Source of the DNA: Candidatus Desantisiibacteriota bacterium
GTDB lineage: Bacteria; JACRDZ01
Assembly: GCA_016209155.1 (NCBI GenBank)
Contig: JACQWU010000161.1
Coordinates: 1-5,639, forward strand
Direction: 5' to 3'
Length of the DNA: 5,639 nucleotides
The position numbers and the translations under genes are program-made. The notes beneath the pieces were generated by a model that did no database searches, had not been told where the DNA came from, and saw only the letters and a program-made list of their open reading frames with translations. The stretch's first letter is position 1. Every line of letters starts with the position of its first letter. Shown in pieces: positions 4,186 through 5,639 of this stretch.

Positions 4186-5520
4186 ATGATAAAAGAAAAA
4201 ATACTAATTTTATGGGAAAATGAAAGAAAATTTTTGATAACTATTTTCTTTTTGTCTCTTATTTTAAAGCTCTTATACATTTTTATGGTAGAAGGAATTA
4301 ACACACATCCGGGAGTTGATGGTGTGTTTTATGACAAAGTAGCATTAAATGTTGCAAGAGGATATGGTTTTGTAACAAGCCCGGGGGATTATGGTACTGA
4401 AAAACCGCCGATTTATGTATTTCTTATAGGGCTCTTATATTATATTTTTGGCCATAATTACGGCGCTATAAGAATTGTACAGGCAATACTTAGCGGAGTG
4501 ATATGTATTTTTACTTATCTTATCGGTAAAAAAGTAAAAAATGAAAATATTGGTAAAATTGCCTCTTTTTTGGTGGCTCTTGATCCTTTTCTTACACAGC
4601 TTTCAGCCTGGTATCTTTCACAGATTCTGTATATAACATTTGAAATTATTGCCATTTATTTTATTGTCAAAATGGAAGAGGAATTTTCATGGGGGAAAGC
4701 TTTTATTACAGGATTATTATTAGGACTTTCTTCACTTACAATGTCTTATTCCTCACCGTTTTTTTATCCGTTTATATTGTTGTGGAGTTTTTTGGTGTTT
4801 AAAGGAAATGCAAAAAATATAGGCAAATCTTTTGGTACTATCGCTTTAGTTCTTACTCTTACAATATCTGTATGGACAATCAGAAATTATATTATATTTA
4901 AGGAATTTATTCCTATTGGTACTGCAAGCGGGCTCCGGTTTTGGGGAGGGAATAATCCGCGCGCAAAAGGCGTATGGGTACCATGGAGCGGATCCTCAAG
5001 ATTTTATTTCAGCGCCGGAGAGCCCGGATGGGGTGATGCGGGTGATTGGTCTGACTGGGCATCTCAGGCAGGATCCCCGTGGCTCAATTTACAATTCGGT
5101 AAATCCGGAGGTTTGACCCGCAATGAAAGAGATATGCGTTACTGGTTAATGGGGTGGAAATGGATAAAAAAACATCCGGCTGATTATTTAATTCTTTCAT
5201 GCAAAAAATTTATAACTTTCTGGCAGTATTGGAACCCCCTTACTACTTTACCGCGGCCAAACCGTTTATGGCGGAATATCGGTAAAATGTATTATTATCC
5301 TTTGCTTGTATTTTTTCTTATAGGTATAATTTATAATTTAAGTGCGTGGAAAAAACTTACAACTTTGTATATTTTTATATTGCACAGTATTACCGGAGCA
5401 CTTGTTTTTTTTGGTGATGCCGGACAGCGTGCGCCTATTACACCTGTTCTATGGATAATAGCTGCGGCGGGACTTGCAGAGATATATCCGGGAATAAAGG
5501 AAAAATTATGGCGTTTATAA
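4186..5520 (+). CDS. GT-C membrane glycosyltransferase, PMT/ArnT-like
   Basis: 444-aa integral inner-membrane protein resembling the ArnT/PMT (GT39/GT83-like) superfamily, which moves sugars from polyprenyl-phosphate carriers on the outer face of the membrane. After a first membrane helix (about 15-35) comes the loop signature DGVFYDKVALNVARGYGF (Asp45, Asp50), then EKPP (72-75) in the place of the usual RPP, then a run of hydrophobic helices giving roughly 10-11 in all. TIRNY (231-235) and GNNPRAKG (255-262) match the conserved start of the large outer loop, and NERDMRYW (313-320) its end; GDAGQRAPITP (410-420) is the usual Arg-containing motif before the last helix. Gln146 in LSQIL stands where relatives usually have an acidic residue. 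It begins 15 nt after polA with only a weak GGA-type ribosome site. Acceptor and donor sugar cannot be told. The superfamily is secure; the subfamily is not. Confidence 0.88.
   Translation: MIKEKILILWENERKFLITIFFLSLILKLLYIFMVEGINTHPGVDGVFYDKVALNVARGYGFVTSPGDYGTEKPPIYVFLIGLLYYIFGHNYGAIRIVQAILSGVICIFTYLIGKKVKNENIGKIASFLVALDPFLTQLSAWYLSQILYITFEIIAIYFIVKMEEEFSWGKAFITGLLLGLSSLTMSYSSPFFYPFILLWSFLVFKGNAKNIGKSFGTIALVLTLTISVWTIRNYIIFKEFIPIGTASGLRFWGGNNPRAKGVWVPWSGSSRFYFSAGEPGWGDAGDWSDWASQAGSPWLNLQFGKSGGLTRNERDMRYWLMGWKWIKKHPADYLILSCKKFITFWQYWNPLTTLPRPNRLWRNIGKMYYYPLLVFFLIGIIYNLSAWKKLTTLYIFILHSITGALVFFGDAGQRAPITPVLWIIAAAGLAEIYPGIKEKLWRL
5496..5501 (+). promoter_or_regulatory. Ribosome binding site of the cysteine-rich gene
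   Basis: AAAGGA sits 6 nt before the ATG at 5508, inside the end of the glycosyltransferase gene. This good match at good spacing is the main reason to place the start of the small downstream gene at 5508 rather than at the later TTG at 5541 in the same frame. Confidence 0.65.
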
Positions 5521-5639
5521 AAGCCCGCGGGATAAAAGGATTGATATATGTCCCCTCTCAAAAATCTAAATATAAAAAAAATAATTGCAAAGGCTGCTTC
5601 TCCTGTCAATGGTGCAGTGATGAAAGGTGCGAATTATGC
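5508..5639 (+). CDS. Small cysteine-rich protein, 3'-truncated by window end
   Basis: A reading frame of 44 codons that runs off the window without a stop. It starts MAFIKARGIKGLIYVP, has a basic linker (Lys19, Lys21, Lys23, Lys24), and then six cysteines: Cys27-x2-Cys30-x2-Cys33-x2-Cys36-x4-Cys41-x2-Cys44, with Trp35 and an SDER segment between the fourth and fifth. Regular CxxC spacing of this kind is very unlikely in a non-coding frame and points to a zinc or iron-sulfur site; which one cannot be decided. There is no signal peptide or membrane helix in the visible part. The ATG overlaps the last 13 nt of the glycosyltransferase gene and has an AAAGGA ribosome site, so it looks translationally coupled to it. 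I do not recognise a named family, and the C-terminus lies outside the window. A second, cysteine-free frame from 5548 competes for this stretch and is judged less likely. Confidence 0.75.
   Translation, partial: MAFIKARGIKGLIYVPSQKSKYKKNNCKGCFSCQWCSDERCELC

Follow-up and report, generated by a model that had tools for sequence, protein, structure and literature searches.

A truncated frame with six cysteines at a contig end begins a gene of an undescribed family of small, probably metal-binding proteins

Introduction

The stretch of DNA analyzed here (hereafter, the window) is one whole contig of 5,639 nucleotides from a Candidatus Desantisiibacteriota genome (3.08 Mb in 352 contigs, 78.8% complete). 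Its final bases raise the question of whether an open reading frame that carries six regularly spaced cysteines and runs off the end of the contig is a gene and, if so, what kind of protein it encodes. Here, the frame is examined through its homologues, their conservation, their predicted structure, and their genomic surroundings, with the conclusion, held at a probability of roughly 0.7, that a gene begins here whose product belongs to an undescribed family of cytosolic proteins whose six cysteines most likely ligate metal as thiolates and whose role probably lies in redox, sulfur, or metal housekeeping.

A gene cut by the contig end

The frame at positions 5508-5639 (+) comprises 44 codons before the contig ends and translates to MAFIKARGIKGLIYVPSQKSKYKKNNCKGCFSCQWCSDERCELC, with cysteines at residues 27, 30, 33, 36, 41, and 44. 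A sequence-only reading of the window had described an ATG at 5508, a ribosome-binding site, a 13-nt overlap with the preceding gene, and a C-x2-C-x2-C-x2-C-x4-C-x2-C array, all of which are present: the site, AAAGGA, is read directly at 5496-5501 (+), 6 nt upstream of the ATG, and the overlap spans 5508-5520 (+), the preceding PMT_2-type gene stopping at 5520. No stop codon is visible, as the sequence breaks off at base 5639. It lies beyond the contig end, and the extension proposed in that reading did not recover it, since a search of the same genome with the last 89 bases found no continuing contig; a full-length homologue (L003/L049) is 57 aa long. The start at 5508 is favored over an in-frame ATG at 5451 because most homologues begin with M[A/P/S/G][F/W/Y] at this point. 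A Shine-Dalgarno-like word lies upstream in 83 of 132 homologues. The same reading had left room for a competing frame from 5548, which is not conserved and has no credible homologue (best E of 0.3, versus 221 matches to the main frame).

Distribution of the family

Among 60 relatives searched, one genome from the source's own small phylum yielded a first homologue, which shares 52% identity across all 44 residues (E = 9.7e-12); in this sister genome the protein is complete at 57 aa: MAYKRIPGIKGKFHVPDAPDRPGKHNCPDCFSCQMCGDSRCELCRREQNKKTKKDSS. When the alignment of these two sequences was used as the query for a scan of genomes from 84,980 species, 57 loci were recovered in Desulfobacterota, Planctomycetota, Kiritimatiellia/Lentisphaerae, Spirochaetes, Fibrobacteres, and a single Nitrospinia MAG. 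The window protein matches a model of the homologues with an E of 7.5e-21, a value to which its own row in that model contributes. Most of the weak matches in the homologue searches, with E between 1e-3 and 0.1, were dismissed as chance.

The family was detected in 2 of 4 genomes of the source's small phylum, in 140 of 291 genomes of Desulfobacteria (the class of Desulfonema magnum), in 26 of 198 Spirochaetota genomes, in 5 of 198 genomes of a planctomycete class, in 5 of 194 genomes of the phylum that holds a Kiritimatiellia genome, and in 1 of 74 genomes of another phylum. Desulfobacteria are mostly sulfate reducers. Copy number is usually one, with exactly one match in each of 22 genomes checked singly and two copies in a few Desulfobacteria genomes. 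Further, the family was not found in the IMG/VR viral contigs or in the phage and plasmid collections searched, and the gene is therefore regarded as a host gene.

Sequence conservation

When residues 1-44 of the window protein are aligned with 53 homologues, the identities are 39-63%. In the resulting 54 sequences, K24 and the six cysteines are invariant, and M1, G11, P16, D29, Q34, D38, and R40 are kept in at least 90%. An alignment of 111 sequences agrees, except that D38 falls just below 90% and that M1 too is invariant, its members having been picked for a clear start. In a set of 160 distinct sequences, extracted with a pattern that demands the cysteines, the core columns retain K in 159, H in 126, C in 160, D in 149, C in 160, F in 116, C in 160, Q in 141, C in 160, D in 139, R in 155, C in 160, and C in 160. 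Two fetched profile matches that fall outside the extraction pattern (L195 and L209) also retain all six cysteines, and the last two cysteines count as independent evidence because the pattern used in the genome scan spanned only the first four. The homologues from several phyla, with six cysteines at exact spacing, thus bear out the suspicion of a real small cysteine-rich gene. The GLIYVP segment pointed out in the sequence-only reading is likewise kept, as GxxYVP, and the tryptophan at residue 35, for which conservation had been anticipated, occupies a variable column (M in 56, W in 34, H in 14, and F in 13 of 160 sequences).

Within groups of close homologues, dN/dS (Nei-Gojobori) is mostly 0.05-0.35; a few pairs have higher values, and L136/L204 reaches about 1.1 at low divergence. 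Purifying selection acts in most close pairs. That the frame might be spurious, or a decaying fragment at the end of a contig, has in its favor that it is cut by the contig end with no visible stop codon. This idea is contradicted by full-length homologues in many phyla, by the invariant cysteines, and by the purifying selection evident in almost every close pair, and it can be set aside as extremely improbable; the frame at 5508-5639 is a genuine gene.

Protein anatomy and predicted structure

Homologues that are not fused to other frames have 52-86 aa (median 65) and lack a signal or membrane segment. The N-terminal region, MAFIKARGIKGLIYVP in the window (5508-5555, +), corresponds to the family consensus MxFxxIPGxxGKVYVP, and in an AlphaFold2 model built with 111 sequences it forms the two strands of a hairpin (residues 2-5 and 12-15, pLDDT about 80), with a short helix at residues 38-43. 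The model is moderate overall (pLDDT 78, pTM 0.33), and an earlier one was weaker. The cysteine core, K-x2-C-x2-C-x2-C-x2-C-x4-C-x2-C (5577-5639, +), is delimited by the alignments of 54 and 111 sequences and by the column counts in 160; it covers 20 residues. Shorter relatives that have no hairpin occur (L011-L016, L079, L082, and L086), and the core is therefore taken to be the essential unit. A hairpin-less six-cysteine relative sits immediately downstream of a DsbD-type gene, with a slight overlap, in L151, L152, and L153, three genomes from the Kiritimatiellia phylum.

The tail after the sixth cysteine is variable and mostly basic, and 101 of 132 tails contain extra cysteines. Across 132 homologues, tails average 5.4 K+R versus 2.4 D+E, and the window protein has 9 K/R versus 3 D/E. 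Such a charge would suit a small nucleic-acid-binding zinc protein, either a regulator or one associated with ribosomes or RNA, in which the basic tail contacts nucleic acid, an idea that overlaps with the reading preferred here and differs from it in the target. However, neither the sequence nor the length of the tail is conserved, some tails end in acidic residues (the L074-L085 group), and no nucleic-acid-binding family is consistently matched, which leaves this role improbable.

Relationship to known families

The window protein has no match in Pfam, NCBIfam, or PHROGs, and its homologues have no consistent match in Pfam (54 and 111 members scanned) or NCBIfam. Weak Pfam matches, including Tat, TP2, DUF3079, and RING-like models, each appeared in only 1-4 of the 54 or 111 members and were therefore attributed to cysteine and lysine composition. 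No solved structure in the PDB was matched, either by sequence profile or by a Foldseek search with the AlphaFold2 model, and literature searches turned up no publication that describes the family.

Three groups of known proteins resemble the family in part. Like 4Fe-4S ferredoxins (the Fer4 group of Pfam), the family is small, has CxxCxxC runs, and is common in anaerobes; ferredoxins, however, have the motif CxxCxxCxxxCP, whereas the array described here, C-x2-C-x2-C-x2-C-x4-C-x2-C, lacks the CP, and none of the 54 and 111 members scanned matched a Fer4-type model. The earlier judgment that no ferredoxin is apparent thus holds at the level of sequence. HVO_2753 (PF07754) and other C(P)XCG zinc finger proteins are similar in having fewer than about 70 residues and several CxxC pairs, but the family does not have CPxCG knuckles of this type: its cysteines are followed mostly by F/Y, Q, S, or L/R and rarely by G, a sequence that departs from the C(P)XCG pattern. 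The PF07754 model gave 9.1 bits against L003, with a curated cut-off of 33.2, and did not match the window protein. Bacterial metallothioneins are also small and cysteine-rich and may bind several metal ions through thiolates; they differ in that the core of the family contains only CxxC and no CxC array, and metallothionein models were not matched in Pfam or NCBIfam scans of the homologues. As far as sequence comparison can tell, the family is undescribed in Pfam, NCBIfam, PHROG, and PDB, and is neither a ferredoxin nor a named zinc finger. The window protein shares with the family both the GxxYVP hairpin segment and the K-x2-C-x2-C-x2-C-x2-C-x4-C-x2-C core at the same spacing.

Genomic neighborhoods and potential partners

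The genes that precede the six-cysteine gene in the window encode a PAS-GAF-HD-GYP protein, DNA polymerase I, and the PMT_2-type membrane glycosyltransferase (4186-5520, +; PF13231, E = 8.7e-15), the last being a neighbor in this genome only. By eye, the first 3'-5' exonuclease motif of the DNA polymerase I frame (2550-2620, +) apparently reads FDIAS in place of the usual DxE, and on this sequence-based impression proofreading may have been lost. The gene order of the window is not shared with the sister genome, in which the six-cysteine gene lies between mntP and panC. The gene mntP, which encodes a manganese efflux pump, is found close to family members in three lineages that are not related to one another (L049, L030, and L074-L085).

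Across 160 representatives, 75 close co-directional upstream genes belong to 42 families, and 65 close co-directional downstream genes belong to 43 families. The upstream diversity led to rejection of a conserved operon, and co-translation with the glycosyltransferase, proposed from the window, is a local arrangement and not a trait of the family. Recurrent neighbors include a gene for a mannosylglucosylglycerate-synthase-like glycosyltransferase (7 loci) and cydB (6 loci), and upstream genes in unrelated lineages encode FdhD, cytochrome bd subunit II, rhodanese, DsbD, IspG, NIR_SIR, and Ni-SOD; those downstream include thioredoxin reductase, MsrB (SelR), and ferredoxin domains. The neighbors thus lean toward a sulfur or redox role, and this lean may be a coincidence given how diverse they are.

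Alternatively, the product might be a thiol-redox protein or a sulfur carrier with no permanent metal. Its three CxxC pairs would then shuttle between the dithiol and disulfide states or hold a persulfide, in the service of proteins like FdhD, rhodaneses, DsbD, or thioredoxin reductase. Directly upstream of the family lie fdhD at 19 loci, a 3-mercaptopyruvate-sulfurtransferase-like gene at 5, and DsbD at 3, and in two genomes the six-cysteine frame continues with no stop into thioredoxin reductase (L119:1118-2284, +; L120, minus strand); both observations speak for this reading. However, FdhD went unmatched in at least 13 of the 140 Desulfobacteria genomes that carry the family (G464, G471, G486, G544, G550, G559, G613, G672, G694, G709, G712, G735, and G744). 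The protein can therefore occur independently of FdhD; an obligate FdhD partner is contradicted, and partnership with FdhD as the core function was ruled out. In L119 and L120, moreover, the reductase still has an AAAGGAG site and a GTG start to itself, and read-through between two adjacent genes may account for the open frame instead of a true fusion. Finally, strict retention of six cysteines exceeds the need of a single redox pair. Taken with this evidence, a metal-free thiol role is unlikely.

In L215, the six-cysteine gene and a thioredoxin reductase gene overlap in different frames. The six-cysteine frame is also open into a two-domain ABC ATPase (L117), a xylose-isomerase-like TIM barrel (L045/L129), and, at L121:2406-4352 (+), the mercury-methylation protein HgcA (NF040863, 417.8 bits, cut-off 275). 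In L121, a gene for an HgcB-like ferredoxin follows the HgcA frame, and a thioredoxin reductase-like gene lies upstream. Because the partners differ and the thioredoxin reductase gene has not lost its ribosome-binding site or start codon, these continuous frames were set aside as functional clues and kept as weak leads only.

Potential role of the six cysteines

In the preferred reading, an N-terminal beta-hairpin (GxxGKVYVP) would precede a compact core, K-K-H-x-C-x-D-C-F-S-C-Q-x-C-S-D-x-R-C-x-x-C, whose cysteines would bind metal as thiolates, followed by a variable tail that is usually rich in Lys and Arg. Ligation by thiolates is inferred because the cysteines are invariant and the protein is short, with no signal or membrane segment; on these sequence features, the protein probably binds some metal. 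Zinc, bound as one or two ions, is one candidate, and an Fe-S cluster is the other. A lean toward Fe-S or redox chemistry comes from lineages rich in anaerobes and from the redox and sulfur genes among the neighbors; the odds of Fe-S and zinc are nevertheless about equal, and zinc is as plausible as Fe-S or redox use. It should be noted that a small protein with cysteine motifs need not contain zinc, since 5 of 14 C(P)XCG proteins of Haloferax are zinc-free (PMC11241148). The hairpin and the basic tail might dock the protein to a partner, and the whole probably works as a small, soluble protein with a metal-thiolate site that serves anaerobes in housekeeping of a redox, sulfur, or metal kind. 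The identity of the metal, the partner, and the process are speculative. A more specific version, in which cysteines at i, i+3, i+6, i+9, i+14, and i+17 would form a metal-thiolate microdomain of a geometry absent from solved structures, in a single-copy factor for redox or metal housekeeping in anaerobes from several phyla, is conceivable though doubtful.

About half of the sampled Desulfobacteria, together with scattered members of other phyla, carry this mostly single-copy protein, which has no Pfam, NCBIfam, or PDB entry. A model for the family would allow annotation pipelines to name it, and with six fixed cysteines in a protein of fewer than 90 residues, metal binding is directly testable.
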